DNA of 64,000 nt from Algiphilus aromaticivorans DG1253 (GTDB lineage: Bacteria; Pseudomonadota; Gammaproteobacteria; Nevskiales; Nevskiaceae): assembly GCF_000733765.1 (NCBI RefSeq), contig NZ_JPOG01000001.1, positions 1,860,001-1,924,000 of the forward strand. Reading direction: 5' to 3'. The position numbers and the translations under genes are program-made. Under the pieces are notes generated by a model. The model did not search any database and was not told the origin of the DNA. It worked only from the letters and a program-made list of their open reading frames with translations. Positions 10,125-64,000 of the stretch are shown in pieces (position 1 is the first letter of the stretch; every line of letters starts with the position of its first letter).

Positions 10125-10491
10125 GGGGGCGATCTGGGTTCGACGGTGATCGTGAAGCCCAAGGTGCATGCCGAGGTGTCACCTCCCTCGTAAAACCTGT
10201 GGCAACCAAGCTTAGTTGCGAACGACGACAACTACGCCCTCGCCGCCTAAAACCCGGTGAGCACTCCATCCACTGGCGCCGGTTCTGGTGGAAACGGGGT
10301 GTCGACTACAACCGGCTCGCGATGACGGCCCGCTCCGGCCAATCCATCGTTAAATCCAAACGGAGATAAGCGTCTGCCTAGTCCCCAGCCCGGAGGATTC
10401 GTAGGCGTCGAAAACCTAAATCCGGACTAAGCATGTAGAGCCGAGGGTGGAGCATCATCGGACGCGGGTTCAATTCCCGCCGCCTCCACCA
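10125..10491 (+). ncRNA. ssrA: tmRNA (ssrA), tag ANDDNYALAA
   Basis: 367 nt from GGGGGCG (10125) to the encoded CCA (10491). The 5' seven bases pair with CGCCTCC before the terminal ACCA (one G-U pair), forming the acceptor stem. The conserved GGTTCGA-type T-arm lies near the 3' end, and the 5' end has the usual CTGGGTTCGACGG. The tag frame at 10218-10250 reads Ala-Asn-Asp-Asp-Asn-Tyr-Ala-Leu-Ala-Ala-stop, close to the E. coli tag. tmRNA rescues stalled ribosomes with SmpB. Its 3' end serves as the attachment site of the downstream island and is regenerated intact. Confidence 0.97.
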
Positions 10492-53850: not shown

Positions 53851-54612
53851 TCAGCCCGGGAGGACGACACAGGCTGCGATGAGCACCGCCGCCTCGACCG
53901 CCTCCAGCGCGGCACCGGCCGTATCCCCGGTTGTCCCTCCCAGGCGCGCGCGCAGCATGCGCGCCCACAGCCAAAGCAGGCCGAGCGGCAACGCAACCGC
54001 AAGCAGCGCGACCACGGGCCCGGCCTGCAAACCGCATAACAGCAATACTCCAATGAAGGACAGCGCGGCAAGCTGGCCGGCGCGCGCAACCGGCAGCGCG
54101 CGCGCCATCTCGGCACCGATACCGCCGACCCGCGCATAGGGCAGCGCAGCGAGAAGCAGCGGCATGGCCGCCCGCCCGGCGAGCGGCGCCGCGATCAGCA
54201 CCAGCCAAGCTTGCCCGGCCACCACTACGCTGAGCGCCGAGAACTTGATCAGCAGCAGAACGGCCGCCGCTACCACCGCCGCCGCGCCGCTGTGCGAATC
54301 GCGCATGATCGACAAGGTGCGGCGACGATCGCCATGCCCGCCCAGCCAGCCATCGGCGGTATCGGCGAGCCCGTCCAGATGCAGCGCACCGGTGACCACG
54401 GCCCAGCCAGCGAGCAATAGCGCCGACGCCGGCATCGGCGGCAACACGGTGTTCAGCACCCAGGCCGCTGCCGCCAGCGACAGACCCAGGCCCAGTCCGA
54501 TGACCGGATAGCAGAGCAGCACCTGCCCCTGCTCGCTCGGCGTCAAGGCGCGCGGCAAGCGCACGGGGATCACGGTCAGGAACTGCAGCGCGGCGAGTAG
54601 CGGAATCTTCAT
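53851..54612 (-). CDS. cobS: CobS, cobalamin-5'-phosphate synthase
   Basis: 253 residues, polytopic membrane protein with the family motifs [12 protein letters not shown] and [35 protein letters not shown], whose acidic residues bind metal. It joins adenosylcobinamide-GDP with alpha-ribazole phosphate, the last step of nucleotide-loop assembly. The start overlaps cobT (ATGA). Not the CobS ATPase subunit of cobalt chelatase, despite the name. Confidence 0.95.
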
Positions 54613-55670
54613 GTTTTCTGTGCAACAGCGGCTTCATCGAAGGTGGCCATGCCATTGTGCAGCGCACAAGCCATGCGCAGCAGCGGTACAGCGACGGCCG
54701 CCCCGCTGCCCTCTCCCAGCCGCATGCCCAGATCGAGCAAGGGGGTCGCCTCAAGCTCGCGCAGCACACGCGCGTGGCCAGGCTCGGCAGAGGCGTGGGC
54801 ATAGATCAGCCAATCCGTGAGCCCCGGGCACAGCCGCGCCGCGGCCAAGGCTGCCACCGAGGCGATAAAACCATCCACCAGTACTGGAATCCGGAGCTGG
54901 CCGCAAGCGATATAGGCACCAGCCAGCGCAGCGATCTCGAAACCGCCCACTGCGCGCAGCGCCGCAAGCGGCTCGGTGGCGACATCATGGCGCTCAAGAG
55001 CGCGCGCAATAACGGCAGCCTTGTGCGAGACACCGTCGGCGTCGAGACCGGTGCCGGGCCCGACCAGGGCCTCCGGATTCTCGCCGGTCAGCAGACAGGC
55101 CACCGCCGTGGCCGCGGTGGTGTTGCCGATCCCCATCTCGCCGCCGATGAAGCAATCCGTCGTTCCGGCTCGGATAACGGCGTCGCGGCCGGCCGTCATC
55201 GCCTCGACAAGCTCGGCTTCGGATAGAGCCGAGCCCTGCGCGAAGTTGCGTGTCCCGGGGCCAATGCGCTGCCGATGCAAGAGCACATCGTTGGCCGGCG
55301 TCGGTGTCGGCTCGTCTGCCACCGTGCCGAGATCGACGACCTCCAAGCGTGCGCCCAACTGCCGCGCCGCCACACTAATGGCGGCCCCACCCGTGCAGAA
55401 ATTCGCAATCATCGCTGCCGTCACCGACTGCGGAAACGCGGAGACACCCTCAGCGACGATGCCGTGGTCGGCGGCAAAGACCGTGATTGCCACCGCATCG
55501 ATTGCCGGGCGTTCGCGTCCCTGCAGGCCGGCTAAGCGCACCGCCAGCGCCTCCAGCCGCCCGAGCGCTCCGGGTGGCTTGGTGAGCTGCGCCTGCCGCG
55601 CCTCGGCAGCGGCCATGCAATCAGCGTCGATGGCCCGCGCCGGTAGCTCCCACCACGATGCTTTGCTCAC
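54609..55670 (-). CDS. cobT: CobT, nicotinate-nucleotide:DMB phosphoribosyltransferase
   Basis: 353 residues from GTG 55670, overlapping cobU (GTGA). Conserved [55 protein letters not shown] and the C-terminal EGSGAAVA with the catalytic Glu. It makes alpha-ribazole phosphate from dimethylbenzimidazole and nicotinate mononucleotide, feeding cobS. Confidence 0.96.
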
Positions 55671-56191
55671 AGCGGCTCTCCCTTCAACACCAGCGGTAGT
55701 CCGGCCGCGGTCAACACGACGCGCTCACAGATAGCGGCCAGCTCTTGATGAAGCTGACCGGCCTCGTCGCCGAAGCGTCGGCTGAGGGCATCCATCGGCA
55801 TGATGCCGAGGCCCGTCTCGTTGGCGACCAGAATCAGCCGCCCGCGCGCGTCGCGCACGGCCTCCAGCAAGGAGGCCTTCTCGACTTCCAGCAGCGTGTC
55901 GGCGTCCTCAGCGCAGAGGATCTGGGTCAGCCACAGCGTCAGGCAGTCGACAAGCACAACGCGGCCGGCGCCGTCGACCTCGCGGATGGCTGCACCCAGC
56001 GCCGCGCCGGGCTCGATGGTCTGCCAGTGGGCCGGACGCTGCAGACGGTGCGTGGCGATGCGCGAAGCCATCTCGGCGTCGCCGGCCTGCGCGGTCGCGA
56101 TATAGGACACGGACCCGCCATCCTCACGCGCCAGCTTCTCGGCCAGTCGCGACTTGCCGGAGCGCACACCACCCAGAATCAGTTCGCGCAT
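55667..56191 (-). CDS. cobU: CobU/CobP, adenosylcobinamide kinase / guanylyltransferase
   Basis: 174 residues from ATG 56191 ([14 protein letters not shown]); an upstream in-frame ATG at 56212 adds seven. The P-loop GGVRSGKS and the [12 protein letters not shown] and [22 protein letters not shown] segments are characteristic. It phosphorylates adenosylcobinamide and adds GMP. Its start overlaps the end of cobQ by 13 bp. Confidence 0.95.
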
Positions 56192-57675
56192 GCCGACCCC
56201 CGCTGTCCGCAAAGCGCAAGAATACGGTCCATCGACAGATGCCGGTCCACCGCATCCGCCAGCCGCTCGAAGGCCGCCTCGCGCATGGCCCGCATATCGA
56301 CGGCCGCGCCCGCGCGCAGCCCGGCGTGGCGCAGCAGCACATCGGCCGCCGCCGGCTCGTCGAAGAGGCCGTGCAGATAACAGCCCAGGATCTGTCCGTC
56401 CGGGCTGATGGCCCCGTCCGGCTGGGACGGCGCGTCATCTTCGCCGGCATCGAGCTGCAGCAGCGGTGCGGCCAGTGCCGGTCCCTGCGTGCGACCGGCG
56501 TGGATCTCGTAGCCGCGGGTCGCCGCGCCTTCCTCGAGCAGCAGCCGCGCGGAGCGGTTGCGCAGTACCTTGGTGGCGGTCAGTGTGGTTTCCATGGCGA
56601 ACCAGCCCAGGCCCTCACTGCTGCCGGGCGCGGACTCGACTCCCTCCGGATCGTGGATGGCGCGGCCCAGCATCTGGAAGCCGCCGCAGATGCCGAGCAC
56701 ATGACCGCCGTAGCGCAGATGACGCGCAATAGCCGCTTCCCAGCCCTGGGCGCGCAACCAGGCGAGATCGTCGCGCACGGCCTTCGAGCCGGGTAGCAGG
56801 ATGAGATCGGCGGGCGGCGGCGCCTCATTGGGGCCGACGAGGCGTAGATCCACGCCCGGATGGCGGCGCAGTGCGTCCAGATCGGTGTGATTGCTGATGC
56901 GCGGATACACCGGCACCGCCACACGCAGCGCATCGGCGCCATCGGCATTCGAGACCTCGCGCGACAGCCCATCCTCGGCGTCGAGCTGCAGGCCCTGCAG
57001 ATAAGGCAGCACCCCCAGCACCGGCTTGCCGGTGCGCTGCTCCAGCCAGTCCAGGCCGGGTTGCAACAGGCTGATGTCGCCGCGAAATCGGTTGATAACA
57101 AAGCCGGCCACCCGAGCGCGCTCGCTGTCGGATAGCAGCTCCAGGGTGCCGACCAGATGCGCGAAGACGCCACCGCGATCGATGTCCGCGACCAGGATCA
57201 CCGGGCAGTCGACGGCCTCGGCGAAGCCCATGTTGGCGATGTCGCGATCGCGAAGATTGATCTCCGCCGGCGAGCCGGCGCCCTCCACCAGCACGAGTTC
57301 GAAGGCTTCCGACAGTCGCGCGTGGCTTTCCAGCACCGCGCGCATCGCGGTCGGCTTGTAATCGTGATAGGCCGCAGCCTCCAACTGAGCGGCCGGGTGG
57401 CCGTGGATGATGACCTGCGCACCACGATCGGTAGTGGGCTTGAGCAGCACCGGATTCATGTCGATGCGCGGGGCCAGCCCGCAGGCCGCTGCCTGCACGG
57501 CCTGGGCGCGGCCGATCTCGCCGCCGTCTTCCGTCACGGCGCTGTTGTTGGCCATGTTCTGGGGCTTGAAGGGCACCACCGGGATGCCGCGCCGATGCAG
57601 CGCACGCGCCAACGCAGTAACGAGCAGACTCTTGCCCGCGTCGGAGGTCGTGCCCTGCACCATCAACGTGGCCAC
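56179..57675 (-). CDS. cobQ: CobQ, adenosylcobyric acid synthase
   Basis: 498 residues from GTG 57675 ([16 protein letters not shown], the family's usual opening). The N-terminal P-loop-like ATPase domain is followed by a class I glutamine amidotransferase domain with the nucleophile in [10 protein letters not shown] and the His in [10 protein letters not shown]. Amidates four side chains of the corrin ring. Separated by 3 bp from the DUF2149 gene upstream. Confidence 0.96.
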
Positions 57676-57678
57676 GGA

Positions 57679-57975
57679 TCAGCGCCCCTCGTCGATGAGC
57701 ACCATGCGCCCGGTTTCACGATCGCGATAGACCTGCCCCACCGCCTCGTAGCCACTGCCAGCCTCGCCCGCGCCCTGCGGCACCTCAGGCAGCTCGCGAC
57801 CGCGCTCGACATCGGCACCCGCCTGTTTCTGTTTCAACCCATCGCCAGCTGCGGCCAGCGCAATCATCAGCCCGACCGCGAAGACCAGCATGATGTCCGC
57901 CAGATTGGCCAGCGGCCCCATCGGATCGTCCTCGCCGTCGTCGAAACGGCTGCGGCGGTAATCCGGCACGCTCAT
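57679..57975 (-). CDS. DUF2149 protein, ExbD-like small membrane protein
   Basis: 98 residues with one N-terminal membrane helix (LADIMLVFAVGLMIALAAAG). The Asp in NLADIMLV (about residue 27) sits like the proton-channel Asp of ExbD/TolR (DVMLVLL). The remainder (YEAVGQVYRDRETGRMVLI) is a short periplasmic domain. It overlaps the ExbB-like gene by 4 bp (ATGA) and lies 3 bp before cobQ. DUF2149 proteins recur beside CobN-like and ExbB-like genes; their role as motor stators is inference. Confidence 0.85.
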   Translation of the reverse strand: MSVPDYRRSRFDDGEDDPMGPLANLADIMLVFAVGLMIALAAAGDGLKQKQAGADVERGRELPEVPQGAGEAGSGYEAVGQVYRDRETGRMVLIDEGR

Positions 57976-58415
57976 GCCAAGGCCTCCAGCCGAGCGATCG
58001 CCGCGTCGTACCAGCGCCGTCGCAGGCGGCCGATCAAGAAGCCGAGAATACCGGCCAACAGTCCGAGCACGGTGGTGTTGAAGGCTACCGTCACGGCCTG
58101 CGCCAGCACGTCCAGCTCGCCGCGCCCGAGTGCGGCCAGGCCCGGCCCGAGGGGAATCAGCGTGCCCATCAGCCCGAGCATCGGCCCGACCCGGGCCAAT
58201 AAATCCGCGCGGTCGATCCGCCGCCGCGCCCGCCGCGACAGCGTCCCGATCGATCCGCGCGCCTCCGCGCGCGCCAACCCGCCGGCCCGCTCGCCGAGCA
58301 GCAGCCCCAGCTCCCAGACCGCCAGCGCAATGAGCAGTAGCAGCGCGACGATGACCGGCTGCAGCAGCCAGCCGACGACGGCGTCCATGATCTCTAGAGA
58401 GGCCGAGGTGAACAT
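57972..58415 (-). CDS. MotA/TolQ/ExbB-type proton channel protein
   Basis: 147 residues from ATG 58415 (MFTSASLEIMDAVVGW); an upstream in-frame start at 58514 is not supported. Three membrane helices are visible (VIVALLLLIALAVWELGLLL; LLARVGPMLGLMGTLIPLG; AFNTTVLGLLAGILGFLIG) with the TolQ-type GPMLGLMGT and AFNTT motifs. Together with the DUF2149 protein it makes an ExbB/ExbD-like pair that can couple proton flow to envelope work. Coupled to that gene by overlap, downstream of the CobN-like gene. Confidence 0.88.
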   Translation of the reverse strand: MFTSASLEIMDAVVGWLLQPVIVALLLLIALAVWELGLLLGERAGGLARAEARGSIGTLSRRARRRIDRADLLARVGPMLGLMGTLIPLGPGLAALGRGELDVLAQAVTVAFNTTVLGLLAGILGFLIGRLRRRWYDAAIARLEALA

Positions 58416-59195
58416 CAGGAGATCTCCGCGTAACTGTTCATGAATAGCCCAAGTGGTGAGCCTGTTCAGCAGCAGCCGGTACGACCGTTTCCGCCCTGGG
58501 TTCCGCGCCCTCAAAGCATCCCGCTATCGAGCAGGCGCCCAGCCCGGCGCTCCGGCGCTGGTATACGGGGAACATGGAAGGCTCGTCGCTTCGCGACATC
58601 GCGCGAGGACGTCCGCGCCATTTGCGGCGATGTCGCGTAGCGACGAGCCGTCCCGGGTCGTGCCCTTGGAGGGGTGATGCGCGACCGACTTGCCAGTGGC
58701 AAGTCGCAGTGCGCATCACGGCTGGGCCAGGGAAGGCCCAGCCAGGGTCACTTGATGAGGTCCGGAAGACCGAATCTAGTGACCGCGGCAATCTTCGCGC
58801 GACACGTGGGCCGCGGTTGCCTGCCATCCATGGCGCTACTTTTTCGCTAAAACCAAACCCCGGCCCGGACGTCCTTGTCCGGGCGTTCGCCCGCTGCGAA
58901 GCGCCACTGGCGCTTCGGTCGGGCTCACCCGCGTCAGGCCGCCCGGCGGGCACACGGCTTTTGGTGACTTTTTGCCAAGACAAAAAGTCACCCGCGCCGG
59001 CGCCGACAGAGCATTCGACAGCGTCCAGCTTTACAAGCGCGGAACCGCGAGCGAGAACGGCTGTATAGCCAACAGATTCATCGCCAAGGGCTGCGCCGAT
59101 GCGAACCACCCTCTCCCACCACCCGCTTCGCGGGCGGTCCCCCCTCTCCCGCACAGCGGGAGAGGGAATACTTCGGCAACGGAGACGGTCGCGCA
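58416..59195. repeat. 780-bp gap filled with hairpin repeats
   Basis: No convincing gene. At least seven inverted repeats crowd 58580-59166: 58580-58649 (23-bp arms, one mismatch), 58675-58718 (nested), 58721-58742, 58863-58884, 58897-58917, 58963-58992 (12-bp arms GGTGACTTTTTG) and 59142-59166 (CCCTCTCCCGC arms, next to the CobN-like gene end). It looks like an accumulation of REP-type intergenic elements. The minus-strand open frame through it has repeat-like low-complexity text, not a protein. The last hairpin may terminate the CobN-like transcript. Confidence 0.8.
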
Positions 59196-62100
59196 TCACC
59201 CTCGCCTCCCGGCCCGAACGCCACCGAGCAACAAGATCAGAACCACCCCGGCAATCAACCAGGGCAACAGGCGCACCGCACCCTCAGCGGCCGCTTCCGC
59301 CTCCGCATCCTCCGAGGCACGGCGCTGCTCCTCGGGCTGCTTGCGCTGCGCATCGGCCGCTTCGTCGGCCTTCTGATCCACCCGGATCTCGGCAACGCTG
59401 GCCGGATCCGTCGCCCGCGGCTGCTCCGGCCGCCGCGCCGCATCGCGTACGGCGTTGAATGCCTCGCGCAACGCCTGGTCGTCGAGCCGCTCGGCTACCC
59501 AGTCCATCGTCGGATGATCCGGCGCGGTATGACCGCTGCCGGGCAGGCCGTGCTCGGCCACCAGCTCGGCAAAATCCGCCGCCAGCGCGTCGACGACAGC
59601 CGCCTCGGCCTCCCAGAAGCCGCGCTGGGCGGCGACCAGCAGGATGGCCTGCAGGTGCGTCTTGACATGCACCTTGTCGCCTTCGGCCAGGAAGTCGTCG
59701 AGGCCGATGTCGTGCCGGTCCTCCAGATAGACCTGGTGTACCTCGTCCCAGACCCAGGAGCGCACGATCTCGGGACTGGTGACCTGCCAGCCCCAGAGGT
59801 TGTCGATGAAATCGGCGGCCATCGTGCGCGCGCCGGCGTAGCCCTGCGCCATCAGCGGCTCCAGCCACTGCGGATTGAGATTGCGGCTGCGCAGCTCGCC
59901 GAGCAGGGCGCGCTCGGTGGACTCGACGCGGGCGTTGTCCGGGTCGGCGTATTGCAGAACGTTGTTGGCCGGCGCCTTGCCGGACAGCGACTCGACGGCC
60001 ATCGACAACCCGCCCTGGAAGTCGAAGCCGTCGTCGTTGTCGAGCAGGCCGTAGACATGGCTGGCGCGGCCGAGATAGCTGCGACCGACCTGCCGCAGGC
60101 GCTGCTCGAAGGCGTCGTGCGCAGCCGTGCCGTCGCGACCGCCGCCATAGGCGTGGCCCATGCGGCGGATATAGGCATCGGCCAGCTCGCCACGCGCGTC
60201 CCAGGCACCCGAGCGATCGGCCAGGCGGTTGACGCCGGCGCCGTAGGCCCCGGGCGTTGTCCCGAAGACGCGTAGGGCCGCATCGCGACCGGCGGCCTCG
60301 GCGCCGCGACCCTCGCCCATCAGCGCCTTGGTGTCGGCCACCCAGCTCGCCGCCACATCGTTGGCGGCCAGCGGCTCGTCGCCGGCTTCGCGCAGATCGT
60401 CCGGCAAGCTCTCCAGCGCCGCGTCGAGCGCACCGGCGAGCTGTGGGTGCTTGCTGCGAATGGTGCCGGCGCTGCCCGCCAGCGCCACGCGCACGGCACG
60501 GTCGAGCAGCGCGAGCTGGTCCTCGTAGAGATCGCGGAAGAGACCGGAGGTCGTGAAGAGCGCGTCGCGGCGGCGGCGGCCGTCGGTCAACGGCAGGCGC
60601 TGCAGGTCGGTGACGATACCGCGCGCATTCCAGACCGGCTTGACGCCCAGCATGTCCAGGCCGAAGGCGACCATCACGCCCTCGTCGCGCACGGTATCGG
60701 AGGCCCAGAGCACGATGGCCTCGCTGCCCTTGGCTTCGGCGTCGCCGCGGGCACGCGCTTCGGCGGCCAGCTCGCTGCCCAGCGACCAGGCGACGCGCGT
60801 GGGCACGAGATCGCTGGACAGCGCGTGGAAGTTGCGGCCGGTGGGCAGCACCTCCGGCGTGCGCAGGGGATCGTTGCCCTGCCCCGGCGGCACATAACGG
60901 CCTTCCAGGCCGGCGAGCAGATGCGCCATCTCCTCGCCCGGCGAGGCAACCAGCTTTTCTCGCCATGCCGGCTTGGCCTCGCCGTCGTCGCCGGCCATGG
61001 AGGTCAGCATGGTCTCCAGCGCCTCTTCATCCCAGTCGCGCCCGAAGACGTGCAGGCCCAGCGGCATGTGGCGTTCCTGCATCTCGGTCACGTAGTGGCC
61101 GACCTCGTGCACCAGCAACTCATCGTCGACGTCATTGAGCGAGACGCTCGGCGCATGCTCCGCATTCCCGTCGCCCTCTCCTCCGTGCTCGGCGGCAATC
61201 TCGCGCTCCAGCTCGCGCGCCAGATTCAGCTCCTCGACGCGGCTGCGCAGCCGCTCGACCGCGCGTTGGCGGGTCGGCGAATCGGGGTCGACGGCAGCCT
61301 CGAAGGTCTCCACCAGCTGGCGCAGTTCCAGCAGCTGGTCGTAGAGCTCGGTGGCCGCCAGCGGCGGTGTCAGATGGCTGATCATCACGCCCATCGCGCG
61401 GCGCTTGGCCTGGATGCCCTCGCCGACGCCATCGACGATGTAGGGATAGAGCACCGGCAGCGCACCGCCCAGGATGTCGGGGTAATCGTCGGCGGCCAGC
61501 CCCGCGCCGCGTCGCGGCAGGAACTCGCGCGTCGAGTGCCGGCCCAGGTAGACGAGCGCGTCGGCTTCGAAGTCCTCACGCAGCCAGCGATAGAAGGCGA
61601 CGTAGTGATGCGTGGGCGGGAAGCTGGTGTTGGCGTGCAGCAGTTCCTCCTTCAGCTCCCAGCCGCGCGGCGGCTGCGGACCGATGAAGATATTGCCGAA
61701 GCGCAGACCCGGAAAATGCAGCGCGCCGTCGTGCACCATGGCCTCACCCGGCGCCTCGCCCCAGCCGGAGAGACCCGGAATGCCAGTGCGGATCAGCGCA
61801 TCGCGCAGCTTCGCCAGATCCGCCTCGCTCGCTTCCTCGCGCAGCCGCGCCTCCCAGCCCCGCTCGAGCTGATCGAGCAGATCCAGCGCGCGATCGCGGG
61901 CGGGGTGCTCGAGCTCCTCCAGCAGGTGGCGCAGATCGGCGACGCCGCGCGCCAGCACGCGCTTGCCGATGGCCGGCGCTTCGGCTTCGACCGCTTCCAC
62001 CATGCGCGCATGCAAGAAGCCGATCGGGCCGTGCTCCAGCTCGGCGCGCACGCTGTCCGGCAGCGTCTCGAAATAGAGCTGATAGGCGTCGACCGGCATC

Positions 62101-63596
62101 GCCGGCACGCGTCCGTCAAGCTCGGCCAGCGCGTCGCGGTGCTCGGGCAAGTAGACGCCGCGGTCCTGAATCATCGACAGCAGCGCATCGCCATCCTTGG
62201 GCAGTTCGCCGGTGTCGTAGCCGGCCACCTGGAGGGCGCGCAGGATCTCCAGCAGCGATTCCGGCACATTCAGCTTGTCGGCGCCGATGTTCTGCCGGCC
62301 GGGCGGATGGTTGTAGTAAACCAGCGCGACGCGCTTGTCGGCGTTGTCGCGCGTGCGCAGCCTCTGCCAGCGCTGCAGGCGCTCGGCCATCATGTCCACG
62401 CGCTCGGCCACCGGCCGCGTCAGGCGCAGGCGCACGCCGGTGACCGGGTCGGTTTCCGACGGTCGCGCCACGGCCAGCACGATGGGGGCGATCATGCCCT
62501 GCAGCTCCGGCATCGCCAGTTTGTAGTGCACGGCATCGGCCGGCACGCCCTGCGCAGACAGACGCCACTCGGCCTCGCTGCGATCGGCGAGGCGCATGCC
62601 CTTGATGACCGGTACATCCAGGGCTTTCAAGGCCTTGGTCACCGCGCGCCGGCCCTCGCCACCGCCCACGGTGAAATCCTGCAGGCTGACGACCGCGCTC
62701 AACGCTGCCGGCGCCGCGCGCTCTGCCAGCGTCTCGACGGCCTCCACGCTCGCCCCGCCCCAGCGCGCCAGCACGCCGAAGCACTGCAACCCGCGCGTCT
62801 CCAGCGCGTCGCAGGCCGCGTCCAGCAGTTCGCGGTCGCCGGGCCGGTCGCCGGAGTCCAGGTCGAGCAGCGCCACCGCCGGGCCGTCAGCAAGATCCAG
62901 GTCCGCGGCATCGGCGTGCGCACGGCCGTCGCGGTAGTAGCGCAGCAGTGGCCGGGGGGTGACCTCGGGCACGGCAATGTCGTGGCCGGCACGCGCCAGC
63001 AGCCAGCGCATGAGCCCCTCGATATGTTCGGGGCTGCGGCCGCGATAGAAGGCGCGGCCTTCCAGCCAGGCGGCGTGCTCCGGGAAGGCTTCCTGCTGTG
63101 CGCGCAGATGTACCAGCGGGTCGGCACCGGCTTCCGGGTTCTGGGTGAGCGCGTCGATATCCGCGCCGCTGAATCCGGCGAGGAGCCGCTCACCATCGAG
63201 CCGCGACAGGCGCGTGATGTCGCGATCGCTATTGGTGGCGAGCACCGGCACATCGCGCCCCGGCGGCGCCTCGCGGAACAACCGCTGGATGCGCCCGACC
63301 TGATCACCGAAGACCGCGGCCATGACCACCGCATCGGCCTCGCGCCAGAGCGCGGCCACTTCGGCATCGCTCATGCCCGCGAGCTGCTCCGGCGTGCGCA
63401 GCCGCACTTCGTGCTCCGGATGCTGTTCGACAAAGAGCTCGGCCCCGGCGGCCATCTCCGCCGCGGAGCGCTCGGAGACGATGCCGGCAATGGTTGCCGC
63501 CTGCGCTGCACACGGGGCGAAGAGCAACGCCAAGAGCAAGCGAAGGGGGAACCGCAGATTTCTCAGATTGGAAAGATTGAAAGTCATGTTCTTCAT
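59196..63596 (-). CDS. cobN: CobN-like chelatase-family protein, secreted and membrane-anchored
   Basis: 1466 residues from ATG 63596. Signal peptide (LRLLLALLFAPCAAQA) at the start; one C-terminal helix (LLPWLIAGVVLILLLGG) then RAGRRG. The body is CobN/BchH-type: YYNHPPGRQNIGADKLNVPESLLEIL, PPTHHYVAFYRWLREDF, then LVYLGRHSTREFLPRRG where cytosolic CobN has GKHGNLEW, and GEGIQAKRRAMGVMISHLTPPL. So the catalytic domain should sit in the periplasm, unlike classical CobN. No CobS/CobT ATPase subunits lie nearby; an ExbB-like/DUF2149 pair does. It may chelate or dechelate a tetrapyrrole in the envelope. Overlaps cobC by ATGA. Confidence 0.88.
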   Translation of the reverse strand: MKNMTFNLSNLRNLRFPLRLLLALLFAPCAAQAATIAGIVSERSAAEMAAGAELFVEQHPEHEVRLRTPEQLAGMSDAEVAALWREADAVVMAAVFGDQVGRIQRLFREAPPGRDVPVLATNSDRDITRLSRLDGERLLAGFSGADIDALTQNPEAGADPLVHLRAQQEAFPEHAAWLEGRAFYRGRSPEHIEGLMRWLLARAGHDIAVPEVTPRPLLRYYRDGRAHADAADLDLADGPAVALLDLDSGDRPGDRELLDAACDALETRGLQCFGVLARWGGASVEAVETLAERAAPAALSAVVSLQDFTVGGGEGRRAVTKALKALDVPVIKGMRLADRSEAEWRLSAQGVPADAVHYKLAMPELQGMIAPIVLAVARPSETDPVTGVRLRLTRPVAERVDMMAERLQRWQRLRTRDNADKRVALVYYNHPPGRQNIGADKLNVPESLLEILRALQVAGYDTGELPKDGDALLSMIQDRGVYLPEHRDALAELDGRVPAMPVDAYQLYFETLPDSVRAELEHGPIGFLHARMVEAVEAEAPAIGKRVLARGVADLRHLLEELEHPARDRALDLLDQLERGWEARLREEASEADLAKLRDALIRTGIPGLSGWGEAPGEAMVHDGALHFPGLRFGNIFIGPQPPRGWELKEELLHANTSFPPTHHYVAFYRWLREDFEADALVYLGRHSTREFLPRRGAGLAADDYPDILGGALPVLYPYIVDGVGEGIQAKRRAMGVMISHLTPPLAATELYDQLLELRQLVETFEAAVDPDSPTRQRAVERLRSRVEELNLARELEREIAAEHGGEGDGNAEHAPSVSLNDVDDELLVHEVGHYVTEMQERHMPLGLHVFGRDWDEEALETMLTSMAGDDGEAKPAWREKLVASPGEEMAHLLAGLEGRYVPPGQGNDPLRTPEVLPTGRNFHALSSDLVPTRVAWSLGSELAAEARARGDAEAKGSEAIVLWASDTVRDEGVMVAFGLDMLGVKPVWNARGIVTDLQRLPLTDGRRRRDALFTTSGLFRDLYEDQLALLDRAVRVALAGSAGTIRSKHPQLAGALDAALESLPDDLREAGDEPLAANDVAASWVADTKALMGEGRGAEAAGRDAALRVFGTTPGAYGAGVNRLADRSGAWDARGELADAYIRRMGHAYGGGRDGTAAHDAFEQRLRQVGRSYLGRASHVYGLLDNDDGFDFQGGLSMAVESLSGKAPANNVLQYADPDNARVESTERALLGELRSRNLNPQWLEPLMAQGYAGARTMAADFIDNLWGWQVTSPEIVRSWVWDEVHQVYLEDRHDIGLDDFLAEGDKVHVKTHLQAILLVAAQRGFWEAEAAVVDALAADFAELVAEHGLPGSGHTAPDHPTMDWVAERLDDQALREAFNAVRDAARRPEQPRATDPASVAEIRVDQKADEAADAQRKQPEEQRRASEDAEAEAAAEGAVRLLPWLIAGVVLILLLGGVRAGRRG

Positions 63597-63627
63597 GAAT
63601 CTGCGTGCATCTGCGTAATCTGCGGTT
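63550..63627. repeat. 78-bp repeat with 11-bp inverted ends at the cobC/cobN junction
   Basis: AACCGCAGATT (63550-63560) and its perfect reverse complement AATCTGCGGTT (63617-63627) bracket the junction. Inside, ATCTGCG units repeat every 9-10 bp and AGATT units recur. The element encodes the last residues of CobC (PQITQMHADS) and the first of the CobN-like protein (NLSNLRNLR). It resembles a dispersed miniature repeat that inserted and was adopted as coding sequence. Confidence 0.65.
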
Positions 63628-64000
63628 GATGCGCTTTGAGACGATCGAGTGCGGCGTCCAGGCGCTGCAGACCTGCCGCATCTGGGGGCAAGCCGAAGCG
63701 CAGCGCCGGCGGTTCCTCGAAGGTGCGCGAGAGGATGCCCTGCCGGGCGAGCCGGTCCTGGATCGCCGCGGCTTGCGGATGCGGGCAGTAGCGGAAGAGC
63801 GCGGTGCCACCGGCCACAATCAACCCGTGCCGTTGCAGCACGGCATCCAGCGCGGCGGCCTGAGCGGCCAGCGCCTCGCGCGTGGCGTGTTGCCAGTCGC
63901 GATCGGCCAGGGCACGGGCCAGCACCCAGCGTGCCGGGTGGCTGACGGCCCAAGGCCCGAGCTGCGCTTCCAGCTCGTCACACAAGGCCGGCGGTCCGAA
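63593..64000 (-). CDS. cobC: CobC-type threonine-phosphate decarboxylase, C-terminal part (runs off the window)
   Basis: About 135 C-terminal residues of a PLP-dependent class I/II aminotransferase-fold protein: FGPPALCDELEAQLGPWAVSHPARWV, then GGTALFRYCPHPQAAAIQDRLARQGILSRTFEEPPALRFGLP. These fit CobC (CobD of Salmonella), which makes the aminopropanol-phosphate linker of cobalamin. The catalytic Lys lies beyond base 64000. The last ~10 residues come from the 78-bp repeat. The stop overlaps the CobN-like start (ATGA). Confidence 0.88.
   Translation of the reverse strand, partial: FGPPALCDELEAQLGPWAVSHPARWVLARALADRDWQHATREALAAQAAALDAVLQRHGLIVAGGTALFRYCPHPQAAAIQDRLARQGILSRTFEEPPALRFGLPPDAAGLQRLDAALDRLKAHQPQITQMHADS

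Follow-up and report, generated by a model that had tools for sequence, protein, structure and literature searches.

A CobN-like protein grouped with an ExbB-like channel and a DUF2149 protein in a cobalamin-riboswitch operon of Algiphilus aromaticivorans: a putative energized periplasmic corrinoid-handling machine

The window analyzed here, 64,000 nucleotides of the Algiphilus aromaticivorans DG1253 genome (contig NZ_JPOG01000001.1, positions 1,860,001 to 1,924,000; coordinates below are window positions), encodes on its minus strand a trio comprising a CobN-like protein (59196..63596, 1466 residues), an ExbB-like proton channel subunit (57972..58415, 147 residues, ATG at 58415) and a DUF2149 protein (57679..57975). 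Profile searches place the trio within a cobalamin-riboswitch operon. On balance, we favor a reading in which the trio is an energized periplasmic corrinoid-handling machine in a riboswitch-controlled operon for B12 uptake and completion. The coordinates and motifs given for the trio in a first-pass annotation of the same DNA were reproduced by gene calls and profile matches. That the three genes stand together beyond chance is confirmed by their conservation in many named species.

The CobN-like protein matches PF02514 at 838 bits (cut-off 24.5, E = 1.6e-251) and lies under the curated cut-offs of all nine listed CobN and BchH equivalog models, its best scores against CobN equivalogs being 588 bits vs 1248 for NF004644 and 534 vs 822 for TIGR02257. 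Identity as CobN was dropped on these scores. A signal peptide (approximately residues 1–34, reading LLALLFAPCAAQA-A; 63495..63596) and a C-terminal transmembrane anchor with an Arg-rich end (59199..59276) had been described in the first-pass annotation and are readily seen in the sequence; like the DUF2149 layout given below, they were judged by eye and hydropathy, not by a topology program. Because the signal peptide is combined with a C-terminal hydrophobic helix followed by Arg residues, the body of the protein should face the periplasm. An envelope location is supported by both of these elements and by a clade-specific Cys pair.

In a tree of 78 proteins, the cytosolic CobN (19) and BchH (12) sequences each form their own clade with support of 1.0 (labels were assigned from motifs and tree position; the four CobN and two BchH rows that were checked pass their cut-offs). 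The trio-associated proteins form a third clade (0.984), comprising clade B (1.0), HmuS (1.0) and group A (0.474 alone, 0.797 with HmuS). Judged by sequence, the A. aromaticivorans protein groups with HmuS and its relatives, yet within clade B, a clade of its own. A fold model of residues 240–1360 (predicted local distance difference test score, pLDDT, 87.2; predicted template modeling score, pTM, 0.88) matches HmuS, CobN and ChlH (Foldseek TMq 0.76, 0.75, and 0.68; VIA Z 31.8, 40.3, and 40.0, respectively), with the match to CobN (PDB entry 7C6O) extending over 915 residues at a root-mean-square deviation of 2.8. As far as the model goes, these fold-level matches leave the choice of function undecided. 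One group A trio protein (L103:8474-12427) passes the CobN equivalog NF004644 at 1316.5 bits, so that the model name is no proof of CobN, and behind public names of the kind "cobaltochelatase subunit CobN" there may be proteins that are exported and linked to a motor.

Names already exist for the family of exported CobN-like proteins (BtuS, HmuS), a point absent from the first-pass annotation. BtuS, the exported CobN-like family of Rodionov 2003, is cited in PMC6460266. As defined there, the family consists of exported, anchored CobN-like proteins apart from CobN and ChlH, and the present protein has these properties by sequence. BtuS1 and BtuS2 of Bacteroides fragilis are likewise a predicted periplasmic, CobN-like third type apart from CobN and ChlH (PMC6460266); unlike the protein described here, those studied are tied to heme iron, and a double mutant still released protoporphyrin IX (PMC6460266).

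Clade B is marked by four features: Cys262/Cys272, H-[ED]-x-G-H at residues 830–834, GRHST(R/Y)EF and Asp1186. In domain III, GRHSTREF (61521..61544) occupies the place of GKHGNLEW in CobN, as the first-pass annotation had it and alignments confirm, and of GTHG(S/A)LEF in HmuS, BchH and ChlH. It contains His687, the catalytic His of the superfamily, which corresponds to HmuS His538, and Glu691; both are invariant in 48/48 group B proteins, and an H538A substitution kills HmuS turnover (PMC12583661). Cys262 and Cys272 (62781..62813), which likely form a disulfide, are both present in 24/24 group B rows of the tree alignment and in at least 47/48 of the group B alignment. Elsewhere, neither is found in group A (0/20) or HmuS (0/3), and CobN has Cys in 3/19 rows at 262 and 0/19 at 272. 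HEVGH (residues 830–834; 61095..61109) retains both His residues in 48/48 group B proteins, and the column counts exclude the presence of both in any row of group A, HmuS, CobN or BchH; the motif resembles the zinc-protease-like HExxH pattern. In domain V, LLDNDDGFDF (60018..60047) contributes Asp1186, common to CobN (group B 24/24, CobN 18/19, group A 4/20, HmuS 0/3, BchH 1/12), and Asp1189, which agrees with 17/19 CobN and stands where HmuS has His1209.

The likeness to HmuS of the Bacteroidota hmuYRSTUV operon (PDB entries 9D26 and 9P4S) comprises the PF02514 clade, export, membrane anchoring, ExbB and DUF2149 partner genes, the shared catalytic His and a TonB receptor in the operon. In contrast to HmuS, clade B and the present protein carry different residues at the Met79 and His254 head/neck heme site (among three HmuS-type sequences compared, His254 is found in three and Met79 in two), and the HmuS motif LSLDHxxEFMGG (His1209, Glu1212) corresponds to LLDNDDGFDFQGG (Asp1189, Asp1192). 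The Met-rich domain IV insert of approximately 120 residues is also missing (approximately 300 vs 110 residues between aligned blocks), while approximately 84 additional residues separate two aligned blocks before domain III. The conserved Cys pair and the cobalamin rather than heme operon are further differences. Identity as HmuS was dropped, since its signature residues are missing. CobN (PDB entries 7C6O, 9UK9, and 9FPC) shares the fold, the catalytic His, the Asp1186/Asp1189 motif and the neighbors cobB, cobO and cobQ; however, CobN is cytosolic and works with CobST or ChlID, whereas this protein is predicted to be exported and anchored, is paired with ExbB and DUF2149, and lies in a separate clade.

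The two partner proteins fit the first-pass description of an ExbB-type channel grouped with a DUF2149 protein whose helix carries the Asp of ADIMLV. The ExbB-like protein matches PF01618 at 39 bits (cut-off 22.9) and scores lowest among the genome's 12 MotA/ExbB places, 11 of them outside the trio. The DUF2149 protein matches PF09919 over the cut-off at 33.8 bits, and Asp27 of ADIMLV is invariant in 48/48 aligned DUF2149 proteins. Its layout is ExbD-like, with an N-terminal segment, a single helix containing Asp27 and a β-hairpin, and is read as N-in, C-out. A low-confidence fold model (helix 20–42, strands 80–84 and 91–95) was, at a pLDDT of 65.9, too weak as a structure-search query. The genome has seven ordinary ExbD/TolR places (PF02472), and the DUF2149 gene is not among them. 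As in TonB-ExbB-ExbD, an ExbB-type channel and a small subunit with a membrane Asp accompany a single-anchor client with a juxtamembrane, strand-forming peptide (PMC10907165). In contrast to that system, DUF2149 is unmatched by the ExbD family PF02472, and the place of TonB as client is taken by a chelatase-like protein with a C-terminal anchor.

The link between the CobN-like protein and these two genes, proposed in the first-pass annotation, is reinforced by the almost perfect joint occurrence of anchor and motor. Named genomes were scanned for relatives, which gave 46 loci (58–69% identity) in Marinobacter, Halomonas/Billgrantia/Vreelandella, Thioalkalivibrio, Aquisalimonas, Halospina, Halovibrio and Alcanivorax. 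For 93 CobN-family proteins of sufficient length, the window's own protein not included, a C-terminal anchor and the ExbB-DUF2149 pair are both present in 44 and both absent in 49 (one contig ends before DUF2149). Non-Marinobacter relatives have the C-terminal helix and ExbB in 24/24 cases and DUF2149 in 23/24, the contig of the remaining one (L055) ending first. All 18 Marinobacter relatives lack the helix, and ExbB and DUF2149 at the locus, while keeping the hydrophobic N-terminus. None of the three is found with any of 31 ordinary CobN/BchH proteins. In all 18 loci picked for DUF2149 the CobN-like protein has a C-terminal hydrophobic segment (16 above the threshold of 1.6, two at 1.37 and 1.32), and two additional loci hold anchor, ExbB and DUF2149. 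Nine loci with CobN matches fall outside the 93: L038, L082, L083, L084, and L096 are truncated, frame-shifted or shorter than 1050 residues, L098–L100 are short fetches whose genes are counted under other identifiers, and L101, whose exclusion was not required, has a complete CobN and no motor. The 20 control loci L121–L140 span approximately 1.1–2.7 kb on each side; among their genomes, DUF2149 occurs anywhere only in G324. As trees place Marinobacter inside clade B, its lack of anchor and motor represents a loss. In the Marinobacter orthologues (loci L061–L094), 14/18 end in a C-terminal Cys.

From the side of the motor, DUF2149 was found in 19/397 Pseudomonadota genomes (20 places), and PF02514 in 159/397. 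Apart from the window's own, the 19 DUF2149 places have ExbB adjacent in 19/19 and a CobN-like gene adjacent in 18/19. In the exception (L115:8075-10046, genome G498), a Sel1-repeat protein (PF08238) with a signal peptide and a C-terminal helix precedes ExbB-DUF2149 in place of the CobN-like protein, and by its sequence is a possible second type of client for the same motor. The control genome of Methanosarcina acetivorans, an organism with no outer membrane, matches PF02514, PF09919 and PF01618 (adjacency was not seen) and has no match to ExbD PF02472. A table entry in PMC9425974 lists DUF2149 as linked to TolQ in methanogens.

The tail of the CobN-like protein, ahead of the membrane anchor, holds a D-box-like peptide, PASVAEI (59385..59405). 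In Escherichia coli TonB the D-box (QPISVTMVTPAD peptide) lies beside the membrane anchor and is captured by ExbD through strand recruitment (PMC10907165). A pattern taken from it, P..[VIM]..[VIL], occurs in 26/30 anchored group B tails, compared with a mean of 1.9 and a maximum of 7 in 300 rounds of shuffling, and in 2/31 control tails (shuffled mean 1.5). Group A tails all have a second type of box, [VIE].G..[LM] (20/20; it was derived from those tails), which is found in 0/31 controls. The Sel1-repeat protein of L115 has VQGQAL at the corresponding position, which resembles VQGQKL in L102; since [VIE].G..[LM] arises in 8.75% of shuffles of this tail, the single match is suggestive only.

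The operon runs in the order riboswitch-btuB-cobO-cobB-bluB-btuF-cbiB-cobD-[trio]-cobQ-cobU-cobT-cobS. The cobalamin riboswitch (RF00174, 87.6 bits) lies 6.9 kb past the window end, in the adjoining stretch that was also searched, and btuB, cobO, cobB, bluB, a gene for a BtuF-type binding protein, cbiB and the rest of cobD occupy the region between; the 3′ part of cobD (threonine-phosphate decarboxylase) is at 63593..64000 on the minus strand. The genes cobO, cobB, bluB, cbiB and cobD each exceed a model cut-off. The names btuB and btuF are family-level calls, because equivalog scores are under cut-off (TIGR01779, 569 bits vs 599.7; BtuF model, 50.9 bits vs 234, with Peripla_BP_2 over its cut-off). 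Downstream of the trio, also on the minus strand and called from profile matches, are cobQ (cobyric acid synthase, 56179..57675), cobU (adenosylcobinamide kinase/guanylyltransferase, 55667..56197), cobT (nicotinate-nucleotide–dimethylbenzimidazole phosphoribosyltransferase, 54609..55670) and cobS (adenosylcobinamide-GDP ribazoletransferase, 53851..54612). The spacer between the cobN-like and exbB genes is 780 nucleotides (58416..59195) vs −1 to 209 nucleotides in 26 relatives, computed with exbB taken as 444 nucleotides. It holds a 28-nucleotide stretch, TTTTTGTCTTGGCAAAAAGTCACC, which occurs once in the window and so belongs to no local repeat family.

PF02514 matches are confined to this one gene in the A. 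aromaticivorans genome, which has no second CobN. CbiC has no match; with the late genes present, the genome is able to complete corrinoids but lacks CbiC as a hallmark of ring synthesis. The first-pass annotation had noted no chelatase ATPase. Indeed, none is encoded among the operon genes, and the whole genome has no match to the CobT family PF06213 and only weak matches to the ATPase model TIGR02442, none over cut-off (no search with a CobS-specific model was made). PF01078 gives one full-length match, which by reading is ComM, and a 24-position fragment. By these searches, the genome is without a recognized ATPase for the CobN-like protein. In 30 of the 46 relative genomes, searched in the same way for PF02514 and CbiC, PF02514 matches fall at one place only in 30/30 and CbiC is present in 8/30. 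The co-occurrence with receptors and B12 riboswitches, named as a check in the first-pass annotation, was also found: a BtuB-like match is present at 44/46 relative loci and CobB or CobO at 43/46, the rest being short or ending contigs, and a cobalamin riboswitch was detected in 6/6 loci searched for RNA families. A BtuF-type match lies 3′ of the cobN-like gene in 17/46 loci, and a FecCD permease or ATP-binding cassette (ABC) ATPase gene also follows in three loci checked (L052, L053, and L054).

The joint gain and loss of anchor and motor, the tail peptides and the Sel1 case argue that ExbB-DUF2149 is a proton stator dedicated to a periplasmic effector rather than to TonB. In the proposed mechanism, BtuB would deliver a corrinoid to the periplasm, where the anchored CobN-like protein would accommodate the corrin ring in the cavity (with His687) whose counterpart carries out metal chemistry in CobN, ChlH and HmuS. 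ExbB and DUF2149 would together make up a small stator powered by protons, comparable to ExbBD, TolQR and MotAB, in which DUF2149 may grip the D-box-like peptide of the tail and ExbB may pack on the C-terminal helix of the client. Proton flow through such a complex would pull the clamshell-shaped CobN-like protein through its cycle, a task for which cytosolic chelatases rely on the ATP-consuming AAA+ partners CobST or ChlID. With the state of its metal or axial ligand changed, the ring would then be handed to the periplasmic binding protein and importer, and the imported corrinoid would be finished by CobB, CobO, CobQ, CbiB, CobU, CobT and CobS. The corrinoid ligand is suggested by operon context, by which the heme considered alongside cobalamin analogues in the first-pass annotation is disfavored and corrinoids are retained. 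As for the chemistry, metal insertion or exchange, which would make incomplete or wrongly metalled corrins usable, is tentatively put forward with a likelihood somewhat short of even; capture or hand-over with no metal chemistry is rather unlikely, and cobalt removal more unlikely still.

Several observations weigh against the favored reading. Anchor and motor pair have been gained or lost together in just a few separate events (the entire clade and the Marinobacter loss, at least two), and the strength of their co-occurrence is the agreement of those few events. Marinobacter dispenses with the anchor and the neighboring motor, which is not indispensable there, and L082, an Aquisalimonas contig of 4352 bases from a metagenome-assembled genome, has an anchor and no ExbB in the next 1.2 kb. 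A CobT-family match over cut-off (27.7–102.4 bits) is found in 7/31 genomes, namely the 30 relatives and A. aromaticivorans, all of which were searched for CobT and TIGR02442. Purified HmuS de-chelates heme with NADH, requiring no ATP and no HmuU or HmuV, at low turnover (PMC12583661). A TonB receptor is close by in most trios, with BtuB-like matches in 16/19 DUF2149 loci. The tail pattern P..[VIM]..[VIL] is found in 0/20 group A and 0/3 HmuS tails, and the three HmuS tails have no [VIE].G..[LM] box either; as both patterns were picked or loosened after the tails had been viewed, and the sequences are related, the tail boxes are more a description than a test. Finally, periplasmic cobalt insertion conflicts with the cytosolic production of the known substrate by CobB, and CbiC is missing from 22/30 genomes, ruling out a de novo role there.

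The alternative that survives best, though we consider it unlikely, is a periplasmic cobaltochelatase that supplies cobalt to corrins free of metal or depleted of cobalt and is driven by the proton motor rather than by CobST. The CobN-like domain V motif with Asp1186 speaks for it, as does gene order in four Marinobacter loci (L071, L074, L076, and L078), where cobB-cobN-cobO-cobQ stand in pathway order, albeit in a motor-less setting. Halospina and Halovibrio have the cobalt-late enzyme CobG over cut-off (TIGR02435) and a single PF02514 protein, with neither CobT nor TIGR02442 over cut-off; these are draft genomes, and the searches did not cover CbiX, CbiK and CobS. The predicted periplasmic body and the CobB argument count against such an enzyme, as does the removal, not insertion, of metal by its nearest characterized relative, HmuS. 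De novo cobaltochelatase as a general role was rejected on the 22 genomes without CbiC, and is kept for Halospina and Halovibrio. A cited speculation has cobalt possibly being inserted into acquired cobalamin (PMC8620254).

Somewhat less probable is a corrinoid capture or hand-over protein, acting between BtuB and the importer with no metal chemistry or on the axial ligand only. The frequent BtuB-like, BtuF-type and, in the three loci checked, permease or ATPase neighbors suit this role, and so do the deviation of GRHST(R/Y)EF and HExGH from the chelatase consensus and the retention of an anchor-less version in Marinobacter. However, His687 and Glu691, common to true chelatases, are invariant, a chelatase fold of 1466 residues is an expensive design for a simple carrier, and a BtuF-type gene is often present as well. 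A corrinoid de-chelatase, stripping imported corrinoids of cobalt or of an incorrect metal much as HmuS strips heme of iron, is improbable. It would agree with the clade shared with HmuS, the retained catalytic His, the same gene trio, and related trios in heme loci, a zinc-starvation operon (PMC4542158) and nickel-linked settings; but Met79, His254, His1209 and the Met-rich insert of HmuS are missing, and an operon that is controlled by a riboswitch and encodes late B12 steps but not ring synthesis would not be expected to break corrins down for their cobalt. The least probable alternative, that ExbB-DUF2149 energizes BtuB through TonB and stands beside the cobN-like gene for operon convenience, has in its favor the receptors at DUF2149 and relative loci and the drawing of HmuU/HmuV in this role in Bacteroides papers (PMC12583661, PMC10100974), but is disfavored by the Trichlorobacter lovleyi cluster described below, which already holds a canonical exbB-exbD-tonB and, together with the seven ExbD/TolR places (and 11 other MotA/ExbB places) of A. 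aromaticivorans, argues that the pair is not there for TonB, by Marinobacter, which keeps btuB without anchor or pair so that the pair tracks the anchor and not the receptor, and by the Methanosarcina matches and methanogen listing given above.

An extension of the energized corrinoid-handling reading is that ExbB-DUF2149 represents a third general proton stator for anchored periplasmic effectors, and that it replaces AAA+ partners for periplasmic cobalt insertion or exchange. The effectors would mostly be class I chelatase-like proteins (heme, zinc, nickel, corrinoid), once a Sel1-repeat protein, held by a D-box-like grip. Taken whole, this proposal is doubtful; its general-stator half is the likelier and its cobalt-insertion half the bolder. 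Class I chelatases are ATP-driven cytosolic machines in which the reason for the high energy need is unsettled (PMC7689651). If the proposal is correct, a proton motor on a periplasmic chelatase branch would imply that this energy can be delivered through a membrane as mechanical work, and it would explain HmuU/HmuV of gut Bacteroidota and give DUF2149 a function. Anchor, tail box and motor should be genetically separable, and Marinobacter is a natural control with neither anchor nor motor. The occurrence of the trio near cobalamin genes or riboswitches is already in print: Hmu-like operons lie behind cobalamin riboswitches in B. fragilis NCTC 9343, where HmuV is described as similar to ExbD (PMC10100974). 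HmuU/HmuV are drawn as powering the receptor HmuR in a figure legend of PMC12583661, and HmuT/U/V may affect HmuS activity (PMC13227078). In the accessible parts of the open literature (including PMC8531726, PMC10434189, PMC10846266, and PMC12204202), no statement was found that ExbB/DUF2149 drives a chelatase-like protein, nor were the anchor-motor coupling, tail-box or Sel1 observations found. The sequence evidence indicates a real, conserved and under-described module, in which the clade and its setting are new within the BtuS/HmuS kind and for which the genomic evidence favoring a proton stator dedicated to the chelatase-like protein is good.

Related trios occur in further settings. DUF2149 matches were present in 11 plasmid records, of which 10 were examined. 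Eight of these loci have an annotated CobN, L149 has an unannotated PF02514 protein (1043 bits), and L151 has a remnant beside a truncated receptor. Trios in heme (HmuY) loci of Prevotella, Bacteroides and Aureibacter were found in these records and, with the papers, bear out the similar trio in Bacteroidota hmu operons that the first-pass annotation described. On Runella slithyformis pRUNSL01 (L156), the trio and a TonB receptor lie inside a hyp cluster (hypA, hypB, hypF ... hypC, hypD, hypE), which suggests a nickel role. On Azospirillum brasilense ABSP7_p4 (L150), cobN-exbB-DUF2149 is accompanied by an iron-type ABC importer and a TonB receptor, with nikR approximately 6.7 kb from the trio. 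The T. lovleyi plasmid (L152) has DUF2162-ExbB-DUF2149-CobN-like, then exbB-exbD-tonB and a second receptor; cobN in a TonB cluster of this species, then Geobacter lovleyi, has been reported with its role unknown (PMC3403914). DUF2162 (PF09930) may be the counterpart of HmuT, which in Prevotella has no Pfam match. The Zur-regulated Pseudomonas aeruginosa genes PA1922–PA1925 likewise comprise a TonB receptor, a CobN-like protein, an ExbD-labeled gene and DUF2149 (PMC4542158, PMC9431628), but belong to a zinc starvation regulon; PA1923, whose sequence is not in the tree, is taken as group A type.

Genome G428 has two trios (L106 and L107): one is of group A, and the other, of clade B, has cob genes and a riboswitch as neighbors. 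G439 (L114) and G502 (L112) have a group A trio in a cob operon and a second, higher-scoring CobN elsewhere in the genome, which suggests a division of labor. A clade B-like CobN gene (61% identity) is carried on a 210-kb plasmid of Marinobacter sp. M3C (NZ_CP092285.1, 136277-140320). Elsewhere in the window, a transfer-messenger RNA gene is located at 10125-10491, with the tag ANDDNYALAA.

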